42,307 nt of DNA from Burkholderiales bacterium. GTDB lineage: Bacteria; Pseudomonadota; Gammaproteobacteria; Burkholderiales; Ga0077523. The position numbers and the translations under genes are program-made. The notes under the pieces are model-generated. The model made no database searches, was not told the origin of the DNA, and saw nothing but the letters and a program-made list of their open reading frames with translations. This document shows, in pieces, positions 7,279 through 22,223 of this stretch. Position 1 is the first letter of the stretch, and every line of letters begins with the position of its first letter. The stretch covers positions 1 to 42,307 of the forward strand of contig JALHMS010000036.1 in NCBI GenBank assembly GCA_022843925.1. Direction: 5' to 3'.

Positions 7279-7300
7279 CGCATGCTCCCGGTTGGACGTG

Positions 7301-7310
7301 ACGGCGGGAC
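7301..7310 (-). promoter_or_regulatory. Possible riboswitch expression platform: anti-aptamer strand
   Basis: In the leader RNA the ten bases GUCCCGCCGU encoded here are perfectly complementary to ACGGCGGGAC of the riboswitch's conserved 3' strand (encoded at 7349-7358). Pairing would destroy the aptamer, and ligand binding would prevent it. No U-tract follows, so a classic intrinsic terminator is not evident; translational or Rho-dependent control is possible. This is inference from complementarity. Confidence 0.5.
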
Positions 7311-7332
7311 GACGAATGAAAGGACCACACTC

Positions 7333-7433
7333 GTTCTCCCGGGCTTTTGTCCCGCCGTGGAGCCCCGCGATGCACCCGCGGGACCGTCGGCTCTCGGACC
7401 AGCAGCGCCTCCGCGCCCGGAACCCTAGCCGAC
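7333..7433 (-). ncRNA. Guanidine-I riboswitch (ykkC subtype 1)
   Basis: Reading the minus strand, the conserved blocks of the ykkC/guanidine-I aptamer occur in order: CTAGGGTTCCG, then GGTCCGAGAG, then ACGGCGGGACAAAAGCCCG followed by GGAGA. Outer helix P1 pairs bases 7427-7433 with 7386-7392 (GTCGGCT/AGCCGAC), and a second stem contains CCCGCG/CGCGGG. The aptamer ends about 55 bases before the importer start codon. Known members sense free guanidinium and switch on efflux or degradation genes, which matches the operon. The 3' conserved strand could also pair with a downstream segment at 7301-7310. Confidence 0.95.
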
Positions 7434-7473
7434 ACCAGAGCGAAGTCGATCCGCTCCTTTCGTGGCTCTACTT

Positions 7474-7489
7474 GGCAATCGGCATGCCA
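7474..7489 (-). promoter_or_regulatory. Sigma-54-type (-24/-12) promoter of the guanidine operon
   Basis: Minus-strand TGGCATGCCGATTGCC keeps the GG-N10-GC spacing of RpoN promoters and matches TGGCACG-N4-TTGC at nearly every key base. It would start transcription near 7463, about 30 bases before the riboswitch begins. Nitrogen control of a guanidine-scavenging operon would make sense. Confidence 0.65.
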
Positions 7490-7570
7490 TCGGAAAACGG
7501 TGCGCATCGCGACGAAACTCTCCGGAAAGCACCGCCCCGCGCACCATCCGGGGGCGGCCCGAACGGCTGC

Positions 7571-7585
7571 GCACCTCGTCCGTGC
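7571..7585. promoter_or_regulatory. Possible NtrC-like enhancer site
   Basis: GCACC-TCGTC-CGTGC resembles the NtrC dyad GCACY-N5-RGTGC with one mismatch. Its centre lies about 115 bases upstream of the predicted sigma-54 transcription start, a usual enhancer distance. A single weak site in GC-rich DNA can arise by chance. Confidence 0.35.
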
Positions 7586-7661
7586 CCGACCGTCCGGCAG
7601 CGACAGGGCGAGCAGACCGCGCGACAATCGCAGCACCTTCCCGTCCGGACGGAGCGCCGCC

Positions 7662-8966
7662 ATGAAACCCGCCGCAGCCATCACGCTGGCCCTCCTCCTG
7701 GCCACCTCTGCAGGCCACGGCGTCGCGTGGGCCGCCGACGCGACGCGTCTCGAGGCGCTCGAGAGCGCGTGGCGAAGCGGTGTCCTCACGAAGGACGAAT
7801 ACGAAGCGAAGAGGCGCGCCCTCCTCGCGGCCACACCGAAGCCCGCGGCAGCGAAGCCGTCGGCAGCCGCGACCGGAAAGCCGGCGTACCAGCGCATGCG
7901 CGTCGTGCGCGTGATGGACGCCGAGGGCTGGGGCGAACCCGTCGAGGTGTTCCGCTTCCTGGTCCCCAGCGACTGGAAGAGCGAGGGCGGCGTCCGCTGG
8001 ATCTCGAACCCCGGCTGCCCGTCGAACATCATCCAGCTCCGATTCCGAGCGACGGCCCCGGACGGCATCACGGGCGTCGAGTTCCTGCCGTCGTACACGT
8101 GGGCGGCGGCGGAGGATCCGCAGATGCAGCAGATCCTGCAGCAGAACGCGCAGGCGCAGACCGGCTGCCAGCCCGGTCCCGCCGTGGGCGCTGTGGATTT
8201 CCTCCGCGGGATGGTCGTCCCGCAGATCCGGCCCGGCGCGCGGATCGTCGCCGCCGAGCCGATGCAGTCGGCCACCCAGACGCTGCGACGCAGCTTCGCG
8301 CCGATCAATCAGCAGTACGCCGCAGCGGGCATCGAAGCGCAGCGCACCGGCGACGTCGGCCGCGTCAGGCTCGCCCTCGACGTGGGTGGCCGACCAGCGG
8401 AGGAATGGATCACGGCATCGGTCGTCGCCAACATCTCGGTGGGGCTGAACAGCGCGGCGATGCTGCAGGGCGACTACAACGCGAAGTCGCGCAACTTCCA
8501 ACTGACGGGGCAGGACATCCAGGCGATGCGCGCGCCGAAGGGAGAACTGGACGCCCGGGCACCGCTCTTCGCCCAGATCCTCGCGTCGGTTCAGATCAAT
8601 CCGCAGTACGTCGGTGCCGTGTCGCGGTTCTATCAGGCGATCGGCCAGGTGCAGAACCGCGAGAACGCGAACCGATCGCGGATGTGGCGGGAAGCGCAGC
8701 AATCCATCGAACAATCACGTCAGGAGGTCGCCGCCTACCAGCGCCAGAGCCAGGATCGCATCCGGGAGCAGTTCGGCCAGGCGCTCCGCGGCGTGGAGAC
8801 GTACACCGACCCGCGGACGAACGAGCGGGTGGAGCTGTCGGCGGGCTGGAAGAACGCGTGGACCAACGGCAAGGGGGAATACGTCGTTAGCGACTCGCCA
8901 CTGTTCGACCCCGCAGTGGCACTGCAGGAGGACTGGCGAGCGATGCGGCGGGGCGGGGAACGGTAG
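7662..8966 (+). CDS. Secreted protein of unknown function
   Basis: 434 residues. A signal peptide (hydrophobic core AAAITLALLLATSA, cleavage after VAWA near residue 24) indicates export. The mature N-terminus, RLEALESAWRSGVLTKDEYEAKR, resembles the short SHOCT motif often found at protein ends, followed by an Ala/Lys/Pro linker. The rest has no signature I recognise; residues 300-370 are rich in Gln, Arg and Glu and may be coiled. The ATG at 7662 was chosen over longer in-frame starts because it begins the signal peptide and follows GGAG. The gene stands alone, divergent from the guanidine operon, and ends before a repeat array. Confidence 0.75.
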   Translation: MKPAAAITLALLLATSAGHGVAWAADATRLEALESAWRSGVLTKDEYEAKRRALLAATPKPAAAKPSAAATGKPAYQRMRVVRVMDAEGWGEPVEVFRFLVPSDWKSEGGVRWISNPGCPSNIIQLRFRATAPDGITGVEFLPSYTWAAAEDPQMQQILQQNAQAQTGCQPGPAVGAVDFLRGMVVPQIRPGARIVAAEPMQSATQTLRRSFAPINQQYAAAGIEAQRTGDVGRVRLALDVGGRPAEEWITASVVANISVGLNSAAMLQGDYNAKSRNFQLTGQDIQAMRAPKGELDARAPLFAQILASVQINPQYVGAVSRFYQAIGQVQNRENANRSRMWREAQQSIEQSRQEVAAYQRQSQDRIREQFGQALRGVETYTDPRTNERVELSAGWKNAWTNGKGEYVVSDSPLFDPAVALQEDWRAMRRGGER

Positions 8967-8984: not shown

Positions 8985-9255
8985 GCGTGGCGGGAGTCAC
9001 TGTTGTCCCCAAGCCGACGCCGCGTCGAGCGATGCTCGACCCACGAAGGGCCCTCGCGACTGGAGTCTTCGACGCTGAGAACAACCCCCGTGGGTCGAGC
9101 TTCGCTCGACGCCCGCGTTCCTGGATTCGCCGAGGTTCCCAAGCCATCGCCGCGTCGAGCGGAGCTCGACCCACGAAGGAGCCTCGCCACTGGATTCCTC
9201 GGCGATGGAAACAACCCCCGCGGGTCGGGCTTCGCCCGACCCGTGCGTTCCCGGA
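8985..9255. repeat. Two-unit tandem array of the 130-bp palindromic repeat (inverted relative of the 32.4-33.5 kb array)
   Basis: Two units of about 130 bp start with CGTCGAGC at 9023 and 9153. Each contains an inverted pair: GTCGAGC...GCTCGAC followed by CCACGAAGG, then CCCGTGGGTCGAGC...GCTCGACGC (the last copy reads GGGTCGGGC...GCCCGACCC, preserving pairing by compensating changes). The stretch TTCCTGGATTCGCCGAGG at 9119-9136 is the reverse complement of a stretch in the 32.4-33.5 kb array, so the family is the same and the orientation opposite. It fills the gap between two convergent genes. Confidence 0.85.
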
Positions 9256-9264
9256 CCCGGAGGA

Positions 9265-10920
9265 TCAGCGCACCCGGCGGCGGCGCGCCAGGGTCGCCAC
9301 ACCGAACAGTCCGATCCCCATCAGTGCGTAGGTCGACGGTTCGGGTACCGGGGTGATCTCGAAGAGGGCGGTGCGATGCGAACCGGTCAGCGACGGAACG
9401 TCGTCGATCGATTCGTTGGCGACAGCCAGGAAAATCCGCCCCGCATTCTCGAACACCAGGATGCCCTCGGGTCGGACTTCCGTGCCCGCCTCGCCGACGA
9501 TCATCTGCAGGAAGCTCGAGTTCACCGGATCGGTGATGTCGAACACGGCCACGGCGCTGCGGGTGGTGCGCTCGAGGCCGACGAAGGCGAGGGTCCGGCC
9601 GGCCACCGTGTACAGCGCGATGCCCTCCGGCTCGACGCCCTTGTCGTCGCTGCGGCCGTCCGCATACAGGCCGAGCGCGTGGGCCTCGCGGTCCAGCACG
9701 TCGCCGCTATCGAAGACGAGGGCGCCGCTCTCATCGCGGATCGACATCGAACGCCCGCCGATGCCGATGATCTCGGTGAAGCCACTCGGCCCGGCACCGA
9801 GCCCGTCGGCGCCGATGAGGGAGACGTTCAACCGGCCGAGATTGGCTTCCAGCTTGAGCGCTGCGGCATCCGGGAACACGGTCGGGTCGAGGACCACCGC
9901 AGAGCTGGAGAGACGCCGCATATCGGCATCGTCCGTGAAGGCATCGCCTTCGTTCGCCATTGCGTAGTAGGTCTTGCCGTTGGCGGTGAAAGCGGCGATG
10001 CCGTCGGGCTGGTAGAGCGACTTCACCGGGACATTGCGGAAGGCGACGCCGCCGTCACGATCGGAGGGGTCCATCGTGACGCCGGGCGCGTTGAAGTCCT
10101 TGGTGCCAAGGCCGACGATGCCCGTGAAGGTGAGCGTCTGCAGGTCGAGGGTCGCGATGGCGTTGGCCTCCTGCAGCACGACCTGGGCGGTCTTGCCGTC
10201 CGGGGCGATCGCGATGTACTCGGGCTCGAGCGCCACCGAGGCGCTGGTGCCCGCCTGGATGCGCACGCCGGCGGCACGCAGGGATGCTTCCTGGCCGTCG
10301 AACGATTCGAAGCCGACGGTGGTGACCGCGGAGCTGCCCGGTGCCGCCGCGTTGTACGCGATGACGCCGACGCTTCCCACCGGGTTCACCGTCACGCCCG
10401 ACGCCACGAAGCGCTCCCCCTCGTTCGCCACGAGGAGCCGGCCGTCATTGGTCCAGGTGATCATGTCCGGGACGTTGCCGACGGTCACGCTGCCCAGGCT
10501 CGCGGCGCCGACGGACGCGGCCGACAGGAAGGTTGTGGTGTCGAAGAAGTGGACGGTGCCAGCACCTTCGCGAGTGGTGAGGTTGTTGAAAGCGACGGCG
10601 GCGATGCCGTTGCGGATCGCCATGCTGTTGGGGCTGCCGAGAACGGTCGATGTCTCGAACGACTTCAGCAGGTTGCCGTCGAGGTCGAGCACGTCGAGGC
10701 CGTTGCCGCCGAGCACCCACAGGTTCGCCGTGGCGGCATCGAAGGCGACGATCTCGGCCGACCGGCCGTTGCCCGTCGGCACGGTGCCGCCGGCGGTGAA
10801 GTGGTTGAACGACCACAGCTTCGACACGCTCTCGATGGGGCCGGCGGCGTGGCCGGTGGCGCTGGCGATGGAAAACGCGGTGCCGATCAGGGCAGCCAGA
10901 ATGCGGGGGCGGAAGTTCAT
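9265..10920 (-). CDS. PEP-CTERM surface protein with choice-of-anchor I beta-propeller domain
   Basis: 551 residues. A signal peptide (RILAALIGTAFSIASATGHA) is followed by a long propeller-like domain of the choice-of-anchor I type. Its repeats resemble phytase-like and alkaline-phosphatase-associated propellers, for example DGRLLVANEGE, SDDKGVEPEGIALY and GRTLAFVGLERT. The C-terminus is a complete PEP-CTERM sorting tag: VPEPSTYALM, a hydrophobic helix, then RRRRVR. Such proteins are cleaved and anchored by an exosortase, which is not in this window. The ATG at 10920 follows GGAGACC. Ligand or enzymatic activity cannot be told from the sequence. Confidence 0.88.
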   Translation of the reverse strand: MNFRPRILAALIGTAFSIASATGHAAGPIESVSKLWSFNHFTAGGTVPTGNGRSAEIVAFDAATANLWVLGGNGLDVLDLDGNLLKSFETSTVLGSPNSMAIRNGIAAVAFNNLTTREGAGTVHFFDTTTFLSAASVGAASLGSVTVGNVPDMITWTNDGRLLVANEGERFVASGVTVNPVGSVGVIAYNAAAPGSSAVTTVGFESFDGQEASLRAAGVRIQAGTSASVALEPEYIAIAPDGKTAQVVLQEANAIATLDLQTLTFTGIVGLGTKDFNAPGVTMDPSDRDGGVAFRNVPVKSLYQPDGIAAFTANGKTYYAMANEGDAFTDDADMRRLSSSAVVLDPTVFPDAAALKLEANLGRLNVSLIGADGLGAGPSGFTEIIGIGGRSMSIRDESGALVFDSGDVLDREAHALGLYADGRSDDKGVEPEGIALYTVAGRTLAFVGLERTTRSAVAVFDITDPVNSSFLQMIVGEAGTEVRPEGILVFENAGRIFLAVANESIDDVPSLTGSHRTALFEITPVPEPSTYALMGIGLFGVATLARRRRVR

Positions 10921-11176
10921 GGTAGGTCTCCGGTCGTATGCCGTTTTGTCTCGGGATGGCGACGCTAACAAGCACGGATGACACGGCGCCGTCACCGGAT
11001 GTGATCCGATCGGAGGATCTCCTCGCAGCGCCACGGTCGCACGGTCTCGACCCGGGTGGACGGAACGAAGCGTCCCATCCGGCGGTCCCAGTGCGGCTCG
11101 ATGGGCCGTGCTGCGGACGTTGTCCGGGCGCGCACGACCCACTATCCTCGCCCCGACCACCCGTGAAGAGTTCCCC

Positions 11177-11557
11177 ATGCCCGCTTCGTCCGCCCGCCGT
11201 TCTGTCCTCGCCTGCATTCTCGCCATCGCAGCCCTCCCAGCCCTCGGCGCCGAGGAGCCGCCCGCAGAACGCGCCTCGCTCGGCGTCGTCACCCGCGATC
11301 CCATGGATTTCGAGCGCGAAATGTGGCGCCTGGAGGGCGGCACGTGGATCGTCAAGGTGAAGCCCGACGGGGCCGCGCGCCGTGCGGGCGTCGGTCCCGA
11401 TGACGTCATCGCCGCGATCGACGACGCGGCCATCGCCAACAGCGCGGCCCTCGTCGCGGCACTCGGCGCCCGCAAGCCCGGCGACAAGGTCCGCCTGCGC
11501 ATCATCCGGAATGGCCGCCCCGTCGAGATGGACGCCACGCTCGGCGCGGCCCGCTGA
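11177..11557 (+). CDS. Small exported PDZ-domain protein
   Basis: 126 residues: a signal peptide (VLACILAIAALPALGA) and one PDZ domain at about 30-120. The PDZ core reads IVKVKPDGAARRAGVGPDDVIAAIDDAAI, close to the second PDZ of DegP/HtrA proteases, but no protease domain is present. The ATG at 11177 follows GAAGAG; an upstream in-frame ATG at 11108 lacks a signal peptide and was rejected. It probably acts as a periplasmic adaptor or peptide-binding module. Its partner is unknown. Confidence 0.8.
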   Translation: MPASSARRSVLACILAIAALPALGAEEPPAERASLGVVTRDPMDFEREMWRLEGGTWIVKVKPDGAARRAGVGPDDVIAAIDDAAIANSAALVAALGARKPGDKVRLRIIRNGRPVEMDATLGAAR

Positions 11558-11593
11558 TCGCCCCGTCTTCGATCGCCGATGCCCGGAGGCTCC

Positions 11594-12457
11594 ATGGCCC
11601 GCTGGTCCGCCCGTCGTGAACGTTTCCGTGGCCTCCTCGCCGGCGACGCATGCGTGTACCCCGGCTCGGTCTTCGACCCCGTGTCTGCGCGGATCGCCGA
11701 GGATCTCGGCTTCGAGGTCGGCATGTTCGCGGGGTCGATCGCGTCGCTCACCGTGCTGGGGGCACCGGACATCATCGTGCTCACCCTCACCGAATTCGCG
11801 GAGCAGGCGCACCGCATCTGCCGCGCCGGCGAACTGCCCCTGATGGTCGACGCCGACCACGGCTACGGCAACGCGATGAACGTGATGCGGACGGTCGAGG
11901 CGCTGGAAGCCGCCGGCGTCGCAGGGCTCTCCATCGAGGACACCGACCTGCCCCAGCCCTTCGGCGCCGGGGGCAAGGCGCGGCTGCTGTCGGTGGAGGA
12001 AGGCATCGGCAAGATGCGCGCGGCGCTCGAAGGCCGCCGCGATCCGAAGCTGGTGATTGCCGGCCGCACGAGCGCGCCGTCCATCACCGGGATGGCCGAC
12101 ACCATCGCCCGCGCGAAGGCCTATGCCGAGGCGGGCGTCGACGCGATCTTCGTCGTCGGCATCAAGCAGCGCGCGGACCTCGAAGCACTGGCGGCCGAGG
12201 TGAAGCTCCCGCTCATCCTGGGCGGCGCAGGGAAGGGGCTCTTCGACAGGCCGTGGCTCGCCTCGCAGGGCGTACGAATCTGTCTGCAGGGGCACCAGCC
12301 TTTCATGGCCGCGGTGCAGGCGGTGCACGACACGTTGAAGGCGCTGCGCGAAGGCGCGACCCCCGAGTCGCTGGAAGGCGTCGCAGACGACGAACTGATG
12401 CAGCGCGTGTCGCGCGGCGCCGACTACGCGCGCCGGATGAAGGACTGGCTCGGGTAG
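11594..12457 (+). CDS. Isocitrate lyase/PEP mutase family enzyme, probable oxaloacetate decarboxylase
   Basis: 287 residues forming a TIM barrel of the PEP mutase/isocitrate lyase superfamily. The order of motifs SVFDPVSARIAEDLGFE, DADHGYGNAMNVMRT (metal-binding Asp region), SIEDTDLPQPFG, AGRTSA and QGHQPFMAA follows the Pseudomonas oxaloacetate decarboxylase PA4872, including the GH histidine that family uses. It would cleave oxaloacetate to pyruvate and CO2 in the cytoplasm. ATG 11594 is chosen because GGAGG (11585-11589) precedes it; ATG 11579 would make that site coding. It lies 36 bases after the PDZ gene and ends 16 bases before a convergent gene. Confidence 0.85.
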   Translation: MARWSARRERFRGLLAGDACVYPGSVFDPVSARIAEDLGFEVGMFAGSIASLTVLGAPDIIVLTLTEFAEQAHRICRAGELPLMVDADHGYGNAMNVMRTVEALEAAGVAGLSIEDTDLPQPFGAGGKARLLSVEEGIGKMRAALEGRRDPKLVIAGRTSAPSITGMADTIARAKAYAEAGVDAIFVVGIKQRADLEALAAEVKLPLILGGAGKGLFDRPWLASQGVRICLQGHQPFMAAVQAVHDTLKALREGATPESLEGVADDELMQRVSRGADYARRMKDWLG

Positions 12458-12473
12458 CGGGCGGGGCGCGGCA

Positions 12474-13322
12474 TCACCCCAGGCGGGGAAATATCCAGGG
12501 GCCGCCCGCTTCGGCATCGGCATCGCGCAACGCGGCCTGCCCGGCGGGAGAGACCAGCCAGTCCGCGACACGCCGCGCCAGCGCCCGGGTGACCGCCCCT
12601 GCCGGATGGGCCGGTCCAGGTTCGACGATCACGTAGGCGCGCCGCATGTCGGGGTCCCCGGTGAACAGCACCGCCATTCCCTCCCCGCGCAGCTTGCCGA
12701 ACGCGACGGGAATGTGTCCCACCACCACGTACGCACGCTGCACCGACGCCAGTGCGAGCACCTCATGCGGGTCGGTGGTCTCGTCGGTCATCACCCAACG
12801 GGGCGACGGTCTCGCAACGCCGCCTTTCCTCCACAGTCGCTGCACGATGGCATGGCTGCCAGGATCACGGAACGCGAGGAACGGGGCATGCTGCCGTGCG
12901 ATCCGGGCGAGCGCGTCCACCGCGCTGCCGGCCCCGGCGACCTCCGCCGGATCCTCGACCGGCCCGACGACCACATGCTCGTTGAACGCCCACACACGGA
13001 GTGGCGCGCCCAGCCCCTCGGCTTCGAGTGCGAACGTCTCGTCGCCACCGTGCACGATCAGCAGGTCGGCGGTACCGCGACGGAACTCCGGGACGACCAC
13101 TTCCTTGGGCGCGGCCGACGCCGGCTCGACGCGAACACCGGTCGCGCGCTCGATGCGCGGCACCAGCCGGTCCCATACACCGCACATCCGGATGCCTCCG
13201 ACAACAGCGACGCGGAGCAGAGGGTCGGCATCGGCGCGGGCCGGGAGCGGCAACATGGCCGTCGCTGCGAGCGCGAGCAGCAGCCGACGACGATGACGGC
13301 GGCCCGCCTCGTGGCCGCTCAC
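12474..13322 (-). CDS. TupA-like periplasmic oxyanion-binding protein (tungstate/molybdate type)
   Basis: 282 residues with a basic N-terminus and hydrophobic core LLLALAATAMLPLPARA, so periplasmic. The body follows the TupA/PBP-like pattern: RGTADLLIVHGGDETFALEAEG, FNEHVVVGPVEDPA, APFLAFRDPGSHAIVQRLW, VLFTGDPDMRRAYVIV and DWLVSPAGQAAL. TupA proteins bind tungstate for a TupBC ABC importer, but no permease or ATPase adjoins this gene. The GTG start at 13322 overlaps the receptor stop by four bases (GTGA). Pairing with a TonB receptor suggests it takes a ligand handed over from the outer membrane. Ligand identity is inferred only from family. Confidence 0.8.
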   Translation of the reverse strand: MSGHEAGRRHRRRLLLALAATAMLPLPARADADPLLRVAVVGGIRMCGVWDRLVPRIERATGVRVEPASAAPKEVVVPEFRRGTADLLIVHGGDETFALEAEGLGAPLRVWAFNEHVVVGPVEDPAEVAGAGSAVDALARIARQHAPFLAFRDPGSHAIVQRLWRKGGVARPSPRWVMTDETTDPHEVLALASVQRAYVVVGHIPVAFGKLRGEGMAVLFTGDPDMRRAYVIVEPGPAHPAGAVTRALARRVADWLVSPAGQAALRDADAEAGGPWIFPRLG

Positions 13323-15337
13323 AGATCCACCCTCAGTTCGACGCCCCAGATCGCACCAGGATCGCGATAGCCGAGCTGGGTCTCGTATCGGGCATTGCCC
13401 ACGTTGCGGCCGTATACGGAGACGCGGGCCAGCGTCGGACCCACGTGGAAGTTCCGGCCGACATTGGCGTCGACGCGCACGTAGTCGCCGATCGGATGGA
13501 AGCGGTTGTCGAGGGACCTCCAGTTCGACAGGAACTCGTCGGCGCGGGTCGCTGCGATATTCGCCTCCCAGAGGCCGCGGACGTGGCGGATCGACGCGTT
13601 GAAGAGATTGCGTGGTGAGGTGCGACCGTAGTCCTCGCTCGTCGTGTCGCCCCCGACGACGGTCCATGCGAACCGATAGTGCGTGACGACATCCTCCGAC
13701 CCGAGCACACCATTCACGACCGCCTCGAATCCGTGCCGGTCCACATCGGTCTGGCTCCAGAGCGACGTGACGACACCGGCGCGCGTTCGCACATCGCGCG
13801 CCGGAAACTTCGCATTGCGGATGCGGGTGCGGAACACCGTGAACGCCGGCTGCAGCGCGCGCGATCCCGTGAACGCGACGCCGGCCTCGAACTTCTCCTG
13901 TGCCTCGGGATCCAGTACGCGATTGTCGACGGCCGGGACGCTCTCCACACCGCCTTGTCGCGCCACGTAGGCCCGAGCTGTCACCTTCCACGACGGCGCA
14001 GGCGTCCACGCGGCGCCGATCGAACCGAAACGGTTGGCCGGAAGATCGCGATCGCGGATCGCGGGCTTCTGCAGCAGTTGCTGGTCGGCGAAGTAGTGGT
14101 CGACGCCGCGGACGATGTGCTGGTCATCGATGCGGACCGCACCGTCGACGACGAGCTGCCGGTCCAGGAAGCCCTGCTCCAGCGTCGCAAAGGCACCGCG
14201 CACGTACTCCTCGCGCGGATAGCCTTCGTAGTAGCTCTGGCCCGTGGGCGTGTCCCAGTGCATCGCCTGGGCGCCGAAGCGGACGAGCGTGTCGCCGAAG
14301 CGGGCGGTGTGCTTCACGTCCAAGTTGGTCAGAGCCTCCTCGTTGGGAAAGATGTTCGGTTCCACCGGCAGCACGCTCGCCGCGACGAGCGTGGCACGCA
14401 CCCGGTAAGACGACAGCACGGCCAGGGTGCTGTGGACATCGTTCCACTGCGCGCTGAAGTTGCCCGCGAGCATCGTCGTATCGATCGGCGCGAACGACCA
14501 TCGCTGCGGAGCGAGCGTGCTGCGGCGCGGATCGGCCGCCTGGAACTGCTGCATCGTCGTGTCGCGAAACGCCGAGAACTCCGCCCGCAGGCCGGCGCCG
14601 GAGAAACCGGTCCGGACCATCCAGGCTTCGGACTCGCGCGCCATGTGTTCGTCGGGCCGGCCGTCGGTCGACTGGCGGGATGCGAGGGCGGACACGTAGG
14701 CATTCTCGCCGGCGATGCCGGTGAACACGCTGGCTCCGCGGCCCTCGAAGCGCTCGGCACGCGCGGCAATCGATGCCTCGGTACCGCGGGGCCGGCGCGT
14801 GCGGATGACGATGAAGCCATCGTTGGGTGCCCCCGACGGTCGCCCGAAGTCGACCATCGGACCGAGCGTCAGCGCCGTGCTGTCACGCACGATGTCGACC
14901 TGCTCGATGGCGGTCACCGGCAGCGTCTGAAGGATCCGCGCAGCCGATTCGGAAGGCATGTACACGCCATCGATCACGTATCCGAAGTGCAGGTCCCCAC
15001 GGATCCGGACCGAGTACGGCACCTTGCGCCCCTGGTAGAGCGAAAGCACGCCGGCCGCGTGATTCAGCAGATCGAAGACGTCCGTCGGCCGCAGCGCATC
15101 GATCTCGCGCGCGGTGAAGGTCTGGACCGCAAGCCGACTGCTGGGTGGCGTCCGGTAGGCGTTCAGAGGGCTGTCGGGCTGGAGATCCGGGTAGATCTCC
15201 GAGATCTCCGGCAACCGTCGGGCACGGACCCTGACCTCCGGCGCGACGATCCCGTCGGCGACGCACGCGTCCGCCAGCAGCAACGCGGACGTCAGCAGAA
15301 TCCCGAGACACGGCGCGCGGCCTGCGCGTGCCGTCAC
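13319..15337 (-). CDS. TonB-dependent outer-membrane receptor
   Basis: 672 residues. A signal peptide (LGILLTSALLLADACVADG) precedes a TonB-box-like segment (PEVRVRA), a plug domain (VFDLLNHAAGVLSLYQG, VRIRGDLHFGYVIDG, IEQVDIVRDSTALTLG) and a beta-barrel ending GYRDPGAIWGVELRVDL with a terminal hydrophobic pattern. It imports a scarce ligand across the outer membrane using TonB energy. The GTG at 15337 overlaps the upstream PEP-CTERM stop by four bases; a longer frame to 15616 has no signal peptide there and was rejected. The ligand is unknown; the co-translated TupA-like protein hints at an oxyanion or a small metal complex. Confidence 0.88.
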   Translation of the reverse strand: MTARAGRAPCLGILLTSALLLADACVADGIVAPEVRVRARRLPEISEIYPDLQPDSPLNAYRTPPSSRLAVQTFTAREIDALRPTDVFDLLNHAAGVLSLYQGRKVPYSVRIRGDLHFGYVIDGVYMPSESAARILQTLPVTAIEQVDIVRDSTALTLGPMVDFGRPSGAPNDGFIVIRTRRPRGTEASIAARAERFEGRGASVFTGIAGENAYVSALASRQSTDGRPDEHMARESEAWMVRTGFSGAGLRAEFSAFRDTTMQQFQAADPRRSTLAPQRWSFAPIDTTMLAGNFSAQWNDVHSTLAVLSSYRVRATLVAASVLPVEPNIFPNEEALTNLDVKHTARFGDTLVRFGAQAMHWDTPTGQSYYEGYPREEYVRGAFATLEQGFLDRQLVVDGAVRIDDQHIVRGVDHYFADQQLLQKPAIRDRDLPANRFGSIGAAWTPAPSWKVTARAYVARQGGVESVPAVDNRVLDPEAQEKFEAGVAFTGSRALQPAFTVFRTRIRNAKFPARDVRTRAGVVTSLWSQTDVDRHGFEAVVNGVLGSEDVVTHYRFAWTVVGGDTTSEDYGRTSPRNLFNASIRHVRGLWEANIAATRADEFLSNWRSLDNRFHPIGDYVRVDANVGRNFHVGPTLARVSVYGRNVGNARYETQLGYRDPGAIWGVELRVDL

Positions 15338-16176
15338 CCCCGGCTGGTGGCGGACCGCCGACGGCGCCCTACCGCACCCACCAGCAGCAGGCCTCCGGTC
15401 AGCAACGCCCAGGTCGAGGGCTCGGGGATCGGCGGCGCGAGGTCGTACGTCAGGCGTAGGTTCGGCTTGAGCCAGTCGTCGACATCCGCATCGCTGCTCA
15501 CGAAGCGCTTCACGGACTGCGTCGCCGACTCGTTGCCGACGAGGATCCAACCGAAGTTGGTGTCCGGGGCGTCCAGCCATCCCTGCACGCTCGCCACCAT
15601 GCCGGGGCCGGTCCACGTGTAGACCGATGCCGGATTGCCGGCCACGCTCAGCGCACCCACGGACGCGCTCGCGACCACTGCAGGGTCGAACGTGCCCCCC
15701 TGACTGGACCAGAGGGCGCCGGCGTTCCCGCCGCCGGGGAAACTGCGATACAGCCAGGTCGCATCACCGGCCTGCGCCGCAACGCCCTGGCCGGGGGACG
15801 CAGCGGCATTGGACGTTCCGGTCGTCCACGCCTCCGTCAACTCGAACAGGGAGAAGGTGCGCACCGTCGCGTTGGGCGCCTGGTCGACGAAGAGCGTGAG
15901 CGCGGCACTCGTGATGGTGGCGTCGTCGGGAATGGCCCCGAGGTCGAACTGCAGCAGCGACCGCCGTGGGCTCCCGCCGCCGGTGTTGCCCGCAAACAGG
16001 GCCTCGCCGACGCCGCTCGCATTGCCGGTGAATCCGACGCCGTAGATCACCGCATCCTGCGACGGCAGCAGCGAGACCTGCAGCGCCCATGCGCCCGGCG
16101 CGGCCAGCAGCAGCCACGCCGCGCCCACCCATGCACCTCCGATCCGACCCGTTCGCGCTCTTTCGTTCGTATGCAT
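15334..16176 (-). CDS. DNRLRE-domain PEP-CTERM surface protein, first gene of the TonB operon
   Basis: 280 residues: signal peptide (GAAWLLLAAPGAWA), a DNRLRE-type beta-sandwich (RRSLLQFDLGAIPDDATITSA and VQGWLDAPDTNFGWILVGNE) and a PEP-CTERM tag (PIPEPSTWALLTGGLLLVG, then GRRRRS). The ATG at 16176 follows AGGAG with a seven-base spacer. It is the first cistron of a GTGA-overlapped trio with the receptor and the TupA-like protein, so a surface-located capture or attachment role is plausible but unproven. It is paralogous to the protein encoded at 24746-25540, which shares the GWLDAPxTNFGWILVGNE segment. Confidence 0.87.
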   Translation of the reverse strand: MHTNERARTGRIGGAWVGAAWLLLAAPGAWALQVSLLPSQDAVIYGVGFTGNASGVGEALFAGNTGGGSPRRSLLQFDLGAIPDDATITSAALTLFVDQAPNATVRTFSLFELTEAWTTGTSNAAASPGQGVAAQAGDATWLYRSFPGGGNAGALWSSQGGTFDPAVVASASVGALSVAGNPASVYTWTGPGMVASVQGWLDAPDTNFGWILVGNESATQSVKRFVSSDADVDDWLKPNLRLTYDLAPPIPEPSTWALLTGGLLLVGAVGRRRRSATSRG

Positions 16177-16801
16177 CTCGAGGCTCCTGTGTGTTCCGGG
16201 CGGATCGCCGCACGCGCGGTCGAGCCCACCTCTTTTGATATTCGAATGGATATAACGATAGTCGCCGTAACGATCGACGAATCGACCCCACGGCGCCGAC
16301 CCCCATGCATTGCAGGCATCGGCTCTCGCTACGTTTGCAAAGATACATCGAGACCAAACCGAGCGACAAGCACCGATGGATGGCTTCCGCGACCCATGAC
16401 GCCGGCGGGGTCGGGCGGCGCCGCGAGCGGGCGCGCTCGAAGCCGATCGCCTCGACGTCGTGCCGGCGTGTGCAATCGCATTCTCGATGGAACCTGCCAA
16501 GCCGCCGGATTCCCGGTGCCTCGCCCCTTGGATCGAACGTGGCACGCGTTGGTACCTCGCTTGCCTCCGCAACGAGAGACGGCAACGCGCGCAGGCCGAT
16601 TCGACCACCCCGAGGAGATCGCGGCCACCGCCCTCTTCCTCGCGTCCGATGCCGCAAACTTCTTCCGCGGTCAGGTACCCGGGCCGAGCGGCGGCGCCCC
16701 TATGGGTCGAGGCGCTGTCCCAGGGCGCAGCACACGCCGGGCGCTCCACAGCACGGCCACGGACGGGAGCACGGCTACAATCGGTCGCTGGAGGACGTCC
16801 G
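16177..16801. other. Long intergenic region with no intact gene
   Basis: This 625-base gap separates the divergent TonB operon and Bug gene. It includes an AT-rich patch at 16235-16260, unusual for this DNA, which may hold the TonB-operon promoter. A TACAAT sequence at 16776-16781 precedes the Bug gene start by about 20 bases. A short-chain dehydrogenase fragment lies at 16591-16701. Nothing else is recognisable. Confidence 0.6.
16591..16701 (+). pseudogene. Remnant of a short-chain dehydrogenase/reductase C-terminus
   Basis: One plus-strand frame reads GRFDHPEEIAATALFLASD, AANFFRGQV and then PGPSGG, matching the conserved C-terminal segment of classical SDR enzymes (GRxxxPEEIAxxxLFLASDxAxxxxGQxxxxDGG). 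No Rossmann motif or YxxxK active site is present upstream in any frame. It is therefore a decayed fragment, left by deletion or transfer. Confidence 0.6.
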
Positions 16802-17818
16802 ATGACAACAACAACGCAACGCCGCACCGCGCGCGCCTTCACCGGTGCGAGATCCGGCGTCTACGGCTGGCTCCTGACGATCGCGGCCGCCCTGATGGTC
16901 GTGCCGGCCTGGGCCGCCGAGACCGGCGAGTATCCGAACCGCCCCCTCCGCCTCGTCGTGCCCTTCGCCCCCGGGAGCGCCACCGACACGATGGCGCGAC
17001 TGCTGGCCCACGAGCTGTCGCAACGGCTCGGTCAGACGGTCGTGGTGGACGATCGCCCCGGCGCGTTCGGCCAGATCGCCGCGGTGCACGTGGCCCGGAG
17101 CGCGCCCGACGGGTACACGGTGTTCATGACCACGAACACGACGCACTCGGCGAATCCGCACCTCTACAAGACGCTCGCGTACGACCCGGTGAAGGACTTC
17201 GATCCGGTGGTCCGCAGCGCCACGCTGCCGTTCGTCGTGATCTGCGCCACGGCGCTCCCCGTGAAGACGATGCGCGAGCTCGTCGACCTCGGACGCTCGC
17301 GGCCCGACGGGCTCACGTTCGCGTCGGCCAGCAGTTCGTCGCTCGTGGCCGCGGAGACCATCGCGCGGCTCGGCAAGGTCAAGCTCGTGAGCGTGCTGTA
17401 CAAGGCGAGTCCGCATGCCATCGGCGACGTCGCATCGGGCCGTGTGGACATGATGGTGGCGGACGTCGCGACGGCGATGCCGCAGATTGCCGCCGGCCGC
17501 GTGCGACTGCTCGGCGTCGCCACCGAGAAGCGCATCGCCTCGCTGCCCGACACGCCACCGGTTTCCGACACGCTGAAGGGCTTCGAGGTCGGTTCGTGGA
17601 ACGGTCTTCTCGTCCCCGCCGGTACGCCGAAGCCCGTCGTCACGCGCCTCGCCCGGGAGGTGATCGCCATCCTGACGCGCCCCGACATGGCGGCGCGTCT
17701 CGCCGCCCTCGGCTTCGAGGTGGATCCGCTGGGCCCCGAGCCCTTCGCGGCCTACCTGCGCAGTCAGCTCGACACCTGGGGCCGGCTCATCCGCGACGCC
17801 GGCATCCAACCTCAATAG
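16802..17818 (+). CDS. Bug/TctC-family tripartite tricarboxylate transporter binding protein
   Basis: 338 residues. A signal peptide (LLTIAAALMVVPAWA) precedes a Bug-family fold: PNRPLRLVVPFAPGSATDTMAR, the usual VVDDRPGA (most relatives have VENRPGA), DGYTVFM and the C-terminal MAARLAALGFEV. These periplasmic proteins bind carboxylates, amides or aromatic acids and are greatly expanded in Burkholderiales, often without TctAB permeases, as here. GGAGG lies seven bases before the ATG. It starts an operon with a CoA-transferase and an acyl-CoA dehydrogenase, so the ligand may be a carboxylic acid degraded by them. Confidence 0.92.
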   Translation: MTTTTQRRTARAFTGARSGVYGWLLTIAAALMVVPAWAAETGEYPNRPLRLVVPFAPGSATDTMARLLAHELSQRLGQTVVVDDRPGAFGQIAAVHVARSAPDGYTVFMTTNTTHSANPHLYKTLAYDPVKDFDPVVRSATLPFVVICATALPVKTMRELVDLGRSRPDGLTFASASSSSLVAAETIARLGKVKLVSVLYKASPHAIGDVASGRVDMMVADVATAMPQIAAGRVRLLGVATEKRIASLPDTPPVSDTLKGFEVGSWNGLLVPAGTPKPVVTRLAREVIAILTRPDMAARLAALGFEVDPLGPEPFAAYLRSQLDTWGRLIRDAGIQPQ

Positions 17819-17830
17819 GAAACTCGACCC

Positions 17831-19030
17831 ATGGCCGGTCCGCTGTCCGGAGTGAAGATCCTCGACCTCACCACCGTGGTGATGGGTCCGTTCGCCACGC
17901 AGATCCTCGCGGAGCTGGGCGCGGAGGTGATCAAGGTGGAATCCCGCGAGGGCGACAACATGCGCCACGTGGGGCCGATGAAATCCCCCGGGATGGGCCA
18001 CCTCTTCCTGCATCTCAATCGCGGCAAGCGCGACATCGTGCTCGACCTGAAACAGCCCGAAGGCCGCGAGGCCGTGCTACGGCTCGCCGCGCGCACCGAC
18101 GTGCTCGTCTACAACGTGCGACCCGCGGCGATGGCACGCCTGGGGCTGTCGTACGAGGACGTCCGCGCGGTCAACCCGCGGATCGTCTACGTGGGTGCCT
18201 ACGGCTACGCCGAGAAAGGTCCCGGCGCAGGCCGCGCCGCCTACGACGATCTCATCCAGGGGATCACGGGCCTGCCGTGGCTCGCATCGCGCGACGGGAC
18301 CGCACCGCCGCGCTACGCGCCGGTGAACCTCGCGGATCGCGTCACCGGCCTGCACGCCGTCTACGCCATCACGGCGGCGCTCTTCCATCGCGAGCGCACC
18401 GGCGAAGGCCAGTCGGTCGAGGTCCCGATGTTCGAGAGCGTCGCGCAGTTCGTGCTCGGTGACCATCTCGCGGGGATGTCGTACGAGCCCCCGATCGGCG
18501 GCACCGGTTACGCGCGCCTGGCGGAACGGCGCCCCTACGCCACGAAAGACGGCTGGATCTGCGCGCTCGTCTACAACGACCGCCAGTGGGATCGCTTCCT
18601 CCGCGCGGTGGATCGCGCCGACCTGCTGGAGGACGCCCGCTTCACGTCGCACGGCATGCGCGCCGCGCACATCGCGGAGGTATACGAGTTCCTGGCCGGC
18701 CTCATCGCGACGCGCACCACCGCCGAGTGGATGGCCCTGCTGTCGTCGATCGACGTTCCCGTCGCTCCGATGAACAAGGTGGCCGACCTGCTCGACGACG
18801 AGCATCTCGCCGCCACCGGCTTCTTCGAACCGGAGGCGCATCCGACGGAAGGACCGCTGCTCGCGCCGCGCACGCCCACGGGATGGTCCGCGTCACCGCC
18901 TGGTCCGCGGACGCCGGCGCCACTGCTGGGTCAGCATTCCGCCGAGGTGCTGCGCGAGGTCGGGTACTCCGACGACGAGATCGCCGCGATGGTGGCGAAG
19001 GATGTGACCCGCACCGGATCGGCCGGCTGA
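17831..19030 (+). CDS. CaiB/BaiF family III CoA-transferase
   Basis: 399 residues of the family III CoA-transferases, which move CoA from a donor thioester to a carboxylic acid through an aspartyl intermediate. Diagnostic segments are LSGVKILDLTTVVMGPFATQ, LAELGAEVIKVE, LNRGKRDIVLDLK, and YDDLIQGITGL with the likely catalytic Asp near 139. It starts 12 bases after the Bug gene (TAGGAAA as ribosome site), and its stop shares one base with the next start. It would activate the acid bound by the Bug protein for oxidation by the dehydrogenase; the actual acid is unknown. Confidence 0.92.
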   Translation: MAGPLSGVKILDLTTVVMGPFATQILAELGAEVIKVESREGDNMRHVGPMKSPGMGHLFLHLNRGKRDIVLDLKQPEGREAVLRLAARTDVLVYNVRPAAMARLGLSYEDVRAVNPRIVYVGAYGYAEKGPGAGRAAYDDLIQGITGLPWLASRDGTAPPRYAPVNLADRVTGLHAVYAITAALFHRERTGEGQSVEVPMFESVAQFVLGDHLAGMSYEPPIGGTGYARLAERRPYATKDGWICALVYNDRQWDRFLRAVDRADLLEDARFTSHGMRAAHIAEVYEFLAGLIATRTTAEWMALLSSIDVPVAPMNKVADLLDDEHLAATGFFEPEAHPTEGPLLAPRTPTGWSASPPGPRTPAPLLGQHSAEVLREVGYSDDEIAAMVAKDVTRTGSAG

Positions 19031-20196
19031 TGGACTTCGGCTTCACGCCCGAGCAACGCGCCATCCGGGATGCCGTGACGGCGCTGTGCGCACCGTTCGA
19101 TGCCGCGTACTGGCTGGCGCGCGATCGCGACGGCGGCTTTCCCCACGACTTCCACGCCGCCGTGGCGCGCGACGGATGGCTGGGGATCGCGATGCCGCAG
19201 AAGTATGGCGGCGCCGGCCTCGGCATCGTCGAGGCCTCGATCCTCACGCAGGCGATCAGCGCGTCCGGTGCCGGCTTCTCGGGTGCGTCGGCGATCCACA
19301 TGAACATCTTCGGCCTGAACCCCGTCGTGGTGTTCGGCACCGACGAGCAGAAGGCGCGCTGGCTGCCGCCGCTCATCCGCGGGGAAGAGAAAGCGTGCTT
19401 CGCGGTCACGGAACCCGACGCCGGGCTCGACACCACCCGCCTGAAGACCTCCGCACGCCGCGAGGGCGACCGGTACGTGCTGGACGGCCGCAAGATCTGG
19501 ATCTCCACCGCGCAGGTGGCCGACCGCATGCTGATCCTCGCGCGCACCACGCCCCGCGAGGCGTGTCGGAAACCCACCGACGGACTGTCGCTCTTCTACA
19601 CGCGCCTCGACCGCACGCACGTCGAAGTCCGCGAGATCCCGAAGATGGGCCGCAAGGCGGTCGATTCGAACATGCTGTTCATCGAGTCACTGCCTGTGCC
19701 GGAAGCGGACCGCATCGGCGAGGAAGGACGCGGCTTCGAGTACCTGCTGCACGGCCTGAATCCGGAACGCATCCTGATCGCCGCCGAAGCGGTGGGCCTC
19801 GGCCGCGCGGCACTCGCACGCGCCGTGGCGTACGCGGGCGAGCGCATCGTGTTCGACCGCCCGATCGGCCGGAACCAGTCGATCCAGCATCCGCTGGCGC
19901 GCTGCTGGATGGCGCTGGAAGCCGCGGACCTCATGGTGTTCAAGGCGGCCTCGAAGTACGACGCCGGAGAACCGTGCGGACCGGAGGCCAATGCGGCGAA
20001 ATACCTCGCCGCCGAGGCGTGCTTCCAGACGTGCGAACAGGCGATGCTCACGCTGGGCGGCATGGGCTACGCGCAGGAGTTCCACATCGAACGCTATCTG
20101 CGCGAGGCGATGATCCCGCGGCTCGCGCCGGTGAGCCCGCAGCTCGTGCTGTGCTACATCGCGGAGAAGGTGCTGGGGCTGCCGAAATCGTATTGA
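19030..20196 (+). CDS. Acyl-CoA dehydrogenase
   Basis: 388 residues, the usual length. An N-terminal helical domain (MDFGFTPEQRAIRDAV) is followed by the flavin-binding stretch ACFAVTEPDAGLDTT and IWISTAQVAD, and by the C-terminal domain with FDRPIGRNQSIQHPLA and LTLGGMGYAQEFHIERYLRE. The FAD enzyme forms the alpha-beta double bond of an acyl-CoA and passes electrons to ETF. The start overlaps the CoA-transferase stop by one base (TGATG). Chain specificity cannot be assigned. The gene ends just before a repeat array facing a convergent regulator. Confidence 0.92.
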   Translation: MDFGFTPEQRAIRDAVTALCAPFDAAYWLARDRDGGFPHDFHAAVARDGWLGIAMPQKYGGAGLGIVEASILTQAISASGAGFSGASAIHMNIFGLNPVVVFGTDEQKARWLPPLIRGEEKACFAVTEPDAGLDTTRLKTSARREGDRYVLDGRKIWISTAQVADRMLILARTTPREACRKPTDGLSLFYTRLDRTHVEVREIPKMGRKAVDSNMLFIESLPVPEADRIGEEGRGFEYLLHGLNPERILIAAEAVGLGRAALARAVAYAGERIVFDRPIGRNQSIQHPLARCWMALEAADLMVFKAASKYDAGEPCGPEANAAKYLAAEACFQTCEQAMLTLGGMGYAQEFHIERYLREAMIPRLAPVSPQLVLCYIAEKVLGLPKSY

Positions 20197-20257
20197 AGGG
20201 GCGCTTCGGTCGGGGACGGTGGGTGCGCCACGCAAACCAAACGCGGGCAATGCCGCT

Positions 20258-20590
20258 GCTGGAGGGGCCCATGGCCCCGAAAGCGGTGAGCGCACGGAAA
20301 CGCGTCAACCGGAACGACCGCTTTCGCGGCCATGGGCCGCTCCTACGACAGCGTGACCTTTTCCCATCCCCTGCCCCCCGTAGGAGGGGCCCATGGCCCC
20401 GAAAGCGGTGGATGCTGCAGAAGCGCGTCACCCGGAACGATCGCTTTCGCGGCCATGGGCCGCTCCTACAACAGCGTGACCTTTTCCCGTCCACCGCCCC
20501 CGTAGGAGGGGCCCATGGCCCCGAAAGCAGTGAGCGCACGGAAACGCGTCAACCGGAATCGACGCTCTCGGGGCCATGGGCCCCGCCTAC
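20258..20590. repeat. Three-unit BIME-like array, 122-bp period
   Basis: Three units of about 122 bp each pair a forward element (GGAGGGGCCCATGGCCCCGA, starting at 20261, 20383 and 20505) with an inverted one (CGCTTTCGCGGCCATGGGCC type, near 20318, 20440 and 20563). Every element is itself a palindrome around CCATGG. The family matches the elements at 2737-3042, but the arms differ by compensating substitutions. The last element contains the MarR-like gene's stop codon (20587-20589). The array occupies the gap between convergent genes. Confidence 0.88.
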
Positions 20591-21090
20591 AAGGGAGCGA
20601 ACGCCTCCGCGAACGCCGCCGCCGACCGGTCGATCAGGCGTTCGAAACTCTCCGTGAGATGCGCCGACATGCGGATGAGGCGCGAACGGCCGTCTGCCGG
20701 GTTGTCGACCTCCTCGAGGTATCCCTCGTCGATCGCACGCTTCACGTACTTCATCGCCGTCTGCACGCCGACGCCCTTCACGTAGCCGTAGGCATCGGTC
20801 TTGGGCACGGCCTCGCCGCCGCGGAGCCACAGTTCGGTGAAGAGCCTGGAGAAATAGACGTCCGAGAGGCCGGTGGCATGGAAGGTCTCCACCCAGGCGG
20901 TGTCCAGCTCGCGCAACGCGAGCAGGAACCGCGTCCGCTGTTCGCGCACCGCAACGGCCCGACGACGGGGTCTGGCCGCACCGGGATCGGTCGCCGGGGC
21001 GGCGGTGGTCCGGCGCGCGCGACTTGCGACGCGGGTTGGATTCGCCCGGGATGTCAACGTCTTGTACCCTGCGAAGGCGTCGCGGAACAC
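20587..21090 (-). CDS. MarR-like winged-helix transcriptional regulator
   Basis: 167 residues. From about residue 48 the pattern fits a MarR-type winged helix: a helical start (AVREQRTRFLLALRELD), a recognition region (GVGVQTAMKYVKRAIDEGYLEEV), a wing with the PADGRSRLIRM signature (compare DxRDxRxxxVxLT), and a final dimerisation helix. The first 45 residues are basic and poorly conserved, and the GTG at 21090 has no good ribosome site, so the true start may be internal. It is divergent from the desaturase operon, which it probably controls. Its stop codon lies inside a REP element. Confidence 0.72.
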   Translation of the reverse strand: MFRDAFAGYKTLTSRANPTRVASRARRTTAAPATDPGAARPRRRAVAVREQRTRFLLALRELDTAWVETFHATGLSDVYFSRLFTELWLRGGEAVPKTDAYGYVKGVGVQTAMKYVKRAIDEGYLEEVDNPADGRSRLIRMSAHLTESFERLIDRSAAAFAEAFAPL

Positions 21091-21114
21091 GACGGAACGG
21101 AATCTGCTTCCATT

Positions 21115-21126
21115 TTTACAGGTAAA
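21115..21126. promoter_or_regulatory. Candidate operator between the MarR-like gene and the desaturase operon
   Basis: TTTACAGGTAAA is an inverted repeat with 5-bp arms and a 2-base centre. It lies in an AT-rich patch 25 bases upstream of the regulator start and 65 bases upstream of the desaturase start. Its position suits an autoregulated divergent operator; function is inferred. Confidence 0.4.
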
Positions 21127-21191
21127 TTCGACGTGGACGCGCCGACCATACCCCCGGGCGTGCGTCGCTGCAACCGATCCGGAGACCCACG

Positions 21192-22223
21192 ATGTCCGAT
21201 GCCACCACCGACCTGCCCCCCGGCGGACTCATGCGGGAGCGCGCCGGCACCATCCCCAACACCATCGCCATCGGCTACGCGACCATCGGCCATGTCGCCG
21301 CCCTGGGGCTGCTGGCGCAAGGGACGTGGCCCGCGGTGGTCGCCGGCGCCCTCCTCTCGGCCCACACGATGGTGATCGCGGCCTATCTGATCCACGAGGC
21401 TGCGCACTTCACGCTGTTCCGGGAGCCGGTCCACAACCGGCGCATCGGCGAGGTGATGGCCTGGATCTGCGGCGCCGCCTACGTCTCGTTCGAGCGCATC
21501 CGCCACATGCACCTGCGCCACCATCGGGACCGCGCGGACGTCACAGTGTTCGACTACAAGGCACTGCTGAAGCGCCATCCGTTGCTCCGCGGCACGGTGG
21601 TCGCGCTGGAGTGGATGCATGTGCCGGCGGTCGAGCTGATCATGCATGCGCAGCTTCTGGTGCGGCCCTTCGTGCGCCCCGGCGAGCGGGACCGACGCAC
21701 CCGCGTGATCGTGATGCTCGTCTCCCGGATCGCCCTGTTCGCGGCCCTCTTCAACGCTTCGCCCTGGGCGCTCGTCGGCTACGCGGCCTCGTACTGGCTG
21801 CTGCTCACCGTCCTGAATTGCTTCGACGCCTTCCACCACACGTTCCCGCAGTACTTCACGCACGACGAGCATTTCAAGGTGCCGATGGAGGGTCGCGATC
21901 GCGCCTTCGAGCAGGCGAACACCTACTCGAACGTGATCTCGGCACGCAGGCCGTGGCTCAACCTGCTCACGCTCAACTTCGGTTACCACAACGCCCATCA
22001 CGAACGTGCGGCCGTGCCGTGGTATCGCCTGCCAGCGCTGCATCACGAGTTGTACGGCGCCGAACCCCAGGCCCTGCTGCCGCTGACGGATCTTCTGAAG
22101 ACGTTCCATCGGAACCGCCTGCGGCGCGTGCTGGACGACGACTACGGCGCCGTGGGCACGGGGCCCGGTCGGGCGGACCGCTTCGTCGGCGCGCACGGCG
22201 TTTCGTTCCTGACCGTCGTCTGA
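21192..22223 (+). CDS. Membrane fatty-acid desaturase family protein
   Basis: 343 residues with several membrane segments and the three histidine boxes of di-iron membrane oxygenases: HEAAH (68-72), HLRHH (107-111) and HNAHH (266-270). These bind two irons and use O2 to desaturate or hydroxylate a hydrophobic substrate. The ATG follows GGAG. It is first in an operon with an EamA transporter, a tiny ORF, a cysteine hydrolase and a lactonase, which is not a lipid-synthesis context. The substrate could therefore be something other than a membrane fatty acid; the family also includes hydroxylases. Confidence 0.87.
   Translation: MSDATTDLPPGGLMRERAGTIPNTIAIGYATIGHVAALGLLAQGTWPAVVAGALLSAHTMVIAAYLIHEAAHFTLFREPVHNRRIGEVMAWICGAAYVSFERIRHMHLRHHRDRADVTVFDYKALLKRHPLLRGTVVALEWMHVPAVELIMHAQLLVRPFVRPGERDRRTRVIVMLVSRIALFAALFNASPWALVGYAASYWLLLTVLNCFDAFHHTFPQYFTHDEHFKVPMEGRDRAFEQANTYSNVISARRPWLNLLTLNFGYHNAHHERAAVPWYRLPALHHELYGAEPQALLPLTDLLKTFHRNRLRRVLDDDYGAVGTGPGRADRFVGAHGVSFLTVV

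Follow-up and report, generated by a model that had tools for sequence, protein, structure and literature searches.

A TupA-derived binding protein, a TonB-dependent receptor and a PEP-CTERM protein form a probable molybdenum- or tungsten-acquisition cassette in a Burkholderiales bacterium

A stretch of 42,307 nucleotides from contig JALHMS010000036.1 of a Burkholderiales bacterium (assembly GCA_022843925.1), called the window below, carries on its minus strand the operon of three genes that is the subject of this study. The first gene, P0001 (15334-16176, 280 amino acids), encodes a DNRLRE-domain protein with a PEP-CTERM sorting tail. The second, P0002 (13319-15337, 672 amino acids), encodes a divergent TonB-dependent receptor, recognized by Pfam in its plug and, more tentatively, by a structural model in its barrel, and the third, P0003 (12474-13322, 282 amino acids), a periplasmic binding protein that derives from TupA of the TupABC tungstate transporter and belongs to a separate subfamily. 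At both junctions, the stop and start codons overlap in the same GTGA tetramer (15334-15337 between P0001 and P0002, 13319-13322 between P0002 and P0003), as a first-pass annotation of this DNA had described; this coupling was read in the sequence and inspected in the window's trio alone. Genes of an operon often overlap by four bases, so that the GTGA overlaps alone are not unusual; the unusual part is the combination of genes. By eye, candidate ribosome-binding sites are AGGAG before the P0001 start and GAGGGTGG before that of P0003, and nothing evident stands ahead of the GTG start of P0002. The trio is flanked by a convergent gene for a PEP-mutase-family lyase (11579-12457, plus strand) and by a TctC/CoA-transferase cluster identified with Pfam. 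Neither Pfam nor a profile search of the window found a TupB permease or a TupC ATPase beside P0003, in agreement with the first-pass annotation, whose PEP-CTERM/DNRLRE surface protein and TonB receptor were likewise borne out by domain searches.

P0003 scores just below the Pfam cut-off for SBP_bac_11 (23.6 bits, cut-off 25) and reaches 15.3 bits against the NCBIfam TupA equivalog, for which 400 are required. It nevertheless matches the solved TupA structure 3lr1 in phmmer (E 4.8e-16), and its AlphaFold2 model (pLDDT 90.4) has TupA structures as its best Foldseek matches. Judged from sequence and model, P0003 is thus a TupA homologue with the fold of a periplasmic binding protein, yet not a TupA. 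When aligned with 19 TupA homologues taken from 18 relatives within the order, P0003 shows VVGG at the position of the TTTS motif, where the others have STTS (13), TTTS (4) or TTTT (1), one homologue (L039) being different. It has AFRDPGSH in place of the S-R-(G/A)-D-S-G-T stretch of the 19 homologues, and GHIP where those reaching that far show DR(G/A)T (DSST in L039). With the residue numbering of Desulfovibrio alaskensis TupA (excerpts of PMC5517513) and positions mapped by phmmer sequence alignment alone, Thr9-Ser12 correspond to V40, V41, G42 and G43, Arg118 to F151 (phenylalanine or leucine across the subfamily), Thr124 to S156 (nearly always Ser in the family) and Asp170 to G202, while His59 is kept as H91 and an invariant arginine, R152, adjoins the Arg118 position. 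Across a 20-row alignment of the subfamily, whose members are 47-61% identical to P0003, residues V41, G42, G43, K73, H91, R152, G155 and G202 are invariant. The first-pass annotation had called this protein TupA-like, which holds for homology and fold; the predicted pocket is not TupA-like. It had also named differing ligand residues as one half of a two-part objection to its own hypothesis, and by alignment they do differ.

These residues bear on whether free molybdate or tungstate is the sole cargo of the system, with the P0003 pocket binding the same oxyanion in another way and the receptor boosting uptake at very low concentrations. The alignment of H91 with His59, the invariant R152 beside Arg118 and the serine at position 156 favor this reading, and so do the ModE-type boxes and molybdenum-gene neighbors presented below. 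Against it stand the family-wide replacement of the TTTS, Arg118 and Asp170 positions, and the fact that free molybdate is small enough to pass through porins. We regard it as a possible but doubtful explanation.

The subfamily is sparsely distributed. In 399 genomes of the order, three relatives at 48-60% identity (235-311 bits) were found, the next match scoring 117 bits; at the looser threshold of E<=1e-8, 118 of the 399, the source genome included, matched P0003. The next four relatives (L099-L102) keep STTS and RGDSGTH. In 398 genomes of the phylum, only two (G000 and G102) carried the subfamily at E<=1e-30, together with one TupA at threshold, and the subfamily can therefore be considered rare. 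A candidate relative from the phylum (G750) was rejected, since by eye it is a typical TupA that has genes for a transporter next to it. The search also covered 11 other genomes of the genus to which the window belongs, and none of them had a P0003 match at E<=0.001. Matches in plasmids comprised 62 records, with about 28-33% identity among the 30 listed, and nothing was found in PHROGs. A contig scan of GTDB genomes with P0003 alone returned nothing, whereas one with a four-protein alignment of the subfamily returned 18 loci. Together with the window and a locus designated L096 they make up the 20 family loci considered here (the records of L113 and L119 are identical with those of L097 and L098, which are among the three relatives above). 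The carriers include Azotobacter vinelandii, Derxia, Rhodocyclus, Thiocystis, Methylophilus, Methyloversatilis and Comamonas.

For gene neighborhoods, the 20 family loci were compared with 23 loci of other TupA homologues by means of home-made profiles, nearly all of whose seeds were checked against Pfam; six control loci and two family loci (L105, L112) have a flank shorter than 5 kb on some side. Within 5 kb, a TonB-dependent receptor was present in 18/20 family loci and in 0/23 controls, FecCD permeases in 12/20 vs 3/23, Peripla_BP_2 proteins in 13/20 vs 1/23 and DUF2478 proteins in 10/20 vs 0/23. Conversely, ModB-type permeases were found in 2/20 vs 17/23, and ABC ATPases in 14/20 vs 20/23. 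The subfamily thus differs from the other TupA homologues in its receptor, its FecCD set and DUF2478. Two of its loci have no receptor: that of A. vinelandii, with the gene among mod-type genes, and L112, on a contig that starts 2.9 kb upstream. When the full fetched flanks were considered, seven of the 20 loci (L103, L107-L111 and L119) contained ModE or molbindin. The usual order in Comamonadaceae is receptor, binding protein, DUF2478, Peripla_BP_2, FecCD and ATPase. In Rhodocyclus, a ModE gene, two receptor genes, an Oxidored_molyb protein gene and a FecCD system accompany the binding-protein gene, which stands between the FecCD-type ABC genes and exbB-exbD-nifB. In A. vinelandii, ModA- and ModB-like genes precede the orthologue, and an ABC ATPase, a molbindin, ModE and a further set of ModA, ModB and ATPase lie beside it. 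The loci of Methylophilus and Methyloversatilis combine binding protein, receptor and a PEP-CTERM protein.

The position of DUF2478 between the binding protein and the Peripla_BP_2/FecCD genes (for example at 9809-10354 in L097) makes it a candidate for a molybdenum-related role; the excerpts available from the open-licence PMC literature on DUF2478 and molybdate contained no mention of DUF2478.

It could be argued that P0003 is not a transport binder at all, and rather a signaling or accessory periplasmic protein such as a sensor. Its altered pocket would fit, as would the finding that the profiles used detected no permease beside the P0003-type gene in the window, Methylophilus and Methyloversatilis loci. 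However, the FecCD permease within 5 kb in 12/20 loci argues for transport, even if such importers usually come with a Peripla_BP_2 protein of their own, and we consider a sensor unlikely.

A palindromic ModE-type box lies at 16234-16257 on the minus strand, 57 bp before the ATG of P0001. It has 3/16 mismatches to CGYTATAT-N8-ATATARCG, which we take to be the consensus of the ModE-type operator, and is the only box at three or fewer mismatches in the window, where 0.02 would be expected. The source genome (5.57 Mb) contains seven such palindromic sites, that of the window included, vs two for the reversed pattern. One precedes a modABC operon on another contig, at 26 bp from modA, and one lies 135 bp before an operon for a [2Fe-2S]/molybdopterin oxidoreductase with xdhC. 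Among the 19 testable family loci, six have a box with no more than three mismatches in the operon lead, where 0.07 would be expected. Two further boxes with two mismatches precede the receptor gene of L096 and stand outside this count. Perfect boxes are found in Methylophilus before the operon of binding protein and receptor and 71 bp before the PEP-CTERM gene, and Methyloversatilis has boxes with two mismatches before the corresponding operon and 234 bp before its PEP-CTERM gene. According to these sequences, PEP-CTERM proteins can join a molybdenum response, and the boxes before these two genes are the best evidence for it.

With respect to the other boxes of the source genome, the best one (1 mismatch; contig C7, L132 5623-7207) lies 37 bp before the longest open reading frame of a gene for an alginate-export-family outer-membrane barrel, possibly a molybdenum-regulated porin. 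The gene calls at the remaining three (contigs C2, C4 and C45) gave no link to molybdenum. In support of such regulation, the source genome encodes a ModE-like helix-turn-helix protein. Neither the window nor four stretches of the source genome contained a Moco riboswitch at the Rfam gathering score.

P0002 matches the TonB plug with 39 bits (Pfam cut-off 23.9) and no Pfam barrel, and its AlphaFold2 model shows long strands, with TonB receptors as the best PDB matches and BtuB first; the pLDDT of this model is only 62.9, and its input alignment was made of other TonB receptors. Outside its own genome, P0002 found partial weak matches only, in seven of 398 genomes of the order and nine of 397 of the phylum, and plasmids gave no match at E<=1e-5. 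In 15 of the 16 neighborhoods of these matches, which were fetched, no P0003 relative was found (phmmer E<=1). In L096, the receptor gene (5408-7864) stops early, is followed by a TnpB-like gene and looks interrupted.

Uptake of another metal or siderophore-type complex (iron, cobalamin, vanadium or a lanthanide chelate), with a merely positional link to molybdenum, has to be considered at this point. Iron complexes and cobalamin are the ligands with which TonB receptors and FecCD/Peripla_BP_2 transporters are mostly associated, the P0002 model resembles BtuB most closely in fold, and the carriers Methylophilus and Methyloversatilis are methylotrophs. Receptor fold matches, however, give no specificity, and the ModE and molbindin neighbors, the A. 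vinelandii mod region and the boxes before the family operons and before modABC of the source genome all point to molybdenum. This explanation therefore appears improbable.

The history of the locus could be read from a sister species (G006), which matches the window at 9138-12453 and 16590-23219 on neighboring stretches separated by 850 bp. In G006, these 850 bp and the first matched bases encode an intact 248-residue SDR oxidoreductase. The window has instead, at 12454-16589, an unaligned stretch holding trio and box, bordered by a C-terminal remnant of the SDR gene on the plus strand (16590 to about 16710, end judged by eye). The trio and its box thus form a cassette that stands in place of most of the SDR gene, which G006 keeps intact. 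Most simply, the cassette would have been gained in the lineage of the window; loss in G006 is less simple, because the SDR gene is broken in the window and whole in G006. The flanking lyase occurs at E<=1e-60 in five of 12 genomes of the genus, the source genome included, and among the four relatives fetched, alignment on both sides was limited to G006. The cassette does not stand out in base composition (GC content 0.667-0.714 in 1-kb windows over 9000-19999).

That the edges of this stretch enclose the trio together with its box, and that receptors accompany 18/20 family loci vs 0/23 controls, makes a chance neighborhood of unrelated envelope genes very unlikely, even though PEP-CTERM open reading frames are common in the window and the exact trio, with a P0002-type receptor and a DNRLRE PEP-CTERM protein, was found in no other family locus. 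Conservation of the three families in order, which the first-pass annotation had suggested looking for, was not found: the trio as such is not conserved, and by tail profile PEP-CTERM proteins occur in three of the 20 family loci (the window, Methylophilus and Methyloversatilis) vs 0/23 controls.

Taken together, these observations make it probable that the trio is a horizontally acquired, molybdenum-responsive cassette for acquiring molybdenum or tungsten across the outer membrane, with an importer encoded elsewhere. A ModE-type regulator would shut the trio off when molybdenum is plentiful. When it is scarce, P0002 would pull a molybdenum (or tungsten) species through the outer membrane, driven by TonB, and P0003 would capture this species in the periplasm and pass it on to an inner-membrane importer. 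Candidates for this importer in the source genome are modABC and the FecCD permease encoded on contig C45, whereas relatives could use the neighboring FecCD-type ABC transporter or a ModB-type permease. P0001, as a co-transcribed surface protein, may aid capture at the cell surface. The first-pass annotation had proposed a surface-to-periplasm route of this kind, and its direction is supported by the receptors in 18/20 loci, the molybdenum genes near several of them and the boxes. Its assumption of a distant importer fits as well, since modABC lies on another contig with its own box and the source genome has one strong FecCD permease, with a second match just at cut-off.

A number of points weigh against this interpretation. 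Co-occurrence names no ligand, and the 20 loci are not independent, because about half of them come from the related Comamonas, Delftia and Acidovorax. A ModE gene was found within 5 kb in 2/20 family loci and in 2/23 controls, and at 50 bits or more, over shorter flanks, ModE or molbindin was found in five of the 23 control loci. Molybdenum neighbors thus occur in both families and do not single out the P0003 subfamily, as would be expected if both serve molybdenum or tungsten. In A. vinelandii CA, the fetched flanks of the gene contain no TonB receptor. The receptors of the family loci do not form a single orthologous set: at 30% identity over 250 residues they fall into six groups, in which P0002 stands alone, and BLASTP matched P0002 to none of the receptors of the other loci at E<=1e-3. 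The boxes were scored with an assumed consensus, and the one in the window was noticed by eye first and scored afterwards. From two (reversed control) to about three (Markov) chance sites per genome are expected at three mismatches, 13 of the 19 family leads lack a box at this threshold, most Comamonadaceae among them, and two of the 23 control TupA leads have one (expected 0.08). The nearest ModE relative in the source genome matches only in the helix-turn-helix part (39% over query residues 19-100), and the sole TOBE match there is ModC.

Similar caution applies to P0001. It matches the DNRLRE domain (NF033679, 68 bits vs a cut-off of 34), with the PEP-CTERM motif at the C-terminus and a signal peptide judged by eye. 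However, it has a solitary paralogue in the window that is 42% identical, and a PEP-CTERM motif ends five open reading frames of the window, so that it may stand in the operon by coincidence and a PEP-CTERM gene beside a receptor is less striking here than it would otherwise be. The paralogue, itself with a PEP-CTERM tail, lies next to a second PEP-CTERM protein (24746-25567 and 25623-26270, minus strand; profile search and BLASTP). The two other cases are a choice-of-anchor I family protein (9265-11817, minus strand; profile search) and a further open reading frame found by the tail profile (37863-38930, minus strand). The Methylophilus and Methyloversatilis PEP-CTERM proteins are 67% identical to each other; homology of P0001 to the Methyloversatilis protein was considered and is unsupported (BLASTP E 0.082). 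The source genome holds a second PEP-CTERM/TonB pair on contig C45 (L133 5185-10257), where genes for a FecCD permease, a PEP-CTERM protein and a TonB receptor stand side by side and Rfam gave no match.

If the cassette does acquire molybdenum, a molybdenum complex is somewhat more likely as its ligand than free molybdate, because TonB receptors and FecCD-type importers mostly handle complexes and the oxyanion motif of TupA has been lost. Extending this idea, we tentatively suggest a scattered TonB route for molybdenum complexes (molybdophore, mineral-bound or organic-bound molybdenum). It would consist of a TupA-derived binder re-tooled for a chelate, interchangeable receptors, a FecCD importer and, in some PEP-CTERM-bearing bacteria, a molybdenum-regulated surface capture protein.

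MolBCA, presumably a relative of the FecCD-type importers, from Haemophilus influenzae, invites comparison with this arrangement. Genes for Peripla_BP_2, FecCD and ATPase proteins accompany relatives of P0003 and may be orthologous to those of this molybdate importer (excerpts of PMC4031551), but no such transporter adjoins the trio in the window. P0003 shares fold and homology with TupA of TupABC (excerpts of PMC5517513; PDB 3lr1, 3muq and 5my5), but it lacks TTTS, Arg118 and Asp170 as well as TupB and TupC, and is accompanied by a TonB receptor instead. The mod region of Azotobacter chroococcum is closer in one respect, as it places a TonB receptor in a molybdenum-acquisition cluster as the trio does (Achr_39300, "potentially for molybdate"); A. 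vinelandii DJ lacks that receptor in its mod cluster, and Avin_50730-50650 were assigned to molybdenum acquisition (excerpts of PMC4465626). The A. vinelandii P0003 orthologue probably lies in this cluster. Neither a subfamily of binding proteins nor a box or a link to PEP-CTERM is described in the same excerpts of PMC4465626. In A. vinelandii CA6, a deletion of 42,096 bp removes many molybdenum-acquisition genes (excerpts of PMC8406325), and molybdate uptake is impaired and tungstate tolerated (PMC3675510). Control by ModE1 and ModE2 has been described (excerpts of PMC9542535), and the excerpts of PMC5343134 contained no ModE regulon. Pseudomonas aeruginosa ModA is secreted by the type VI secretion system H2-T6SS and acts together with the outer-membrane protein IcmP (excerpts of PMC11734730), which likewise involves the outer membrane in molybdate acquisition, but by another binding protein and route than in the trio. 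No description of the P0003 subfamily or of a link between PEP-CTERM proteins and molybdenum was found in the excerpts available from the open-licence PMC literature.

Molybdenum limits nitrogen fixation and nitrate use. The importers ModABC, TupABC and WtpABC act at the inner membrane (excerpts of PMC5517513), and the cassette, if it functions as proposed, would give a name to an outer-membrane step of molybdenum uptake and provide a searchable marker protein, the VVGG/APKE/FRDPGS subfamily. It would also make the uptake of molybdenum chelates testable by gene deletion, and a route for molybdenum complexes would supply missing chelate-uptake genes in diazotrophs and other bacteria. The shared boxes would give the PEP-CTERM surface protein a candidate role.

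Two features elsewhere in the window may be mentioned. A guanidine-I riboswitch (Rfam RF00442, 85.7 bits) lies at 7334-7439 on the minus strand, and the segments at about 32436-33471 and at 20252-20595 match one stretch of a sister species repeatedly, the first of them in steps of about 131 bp.

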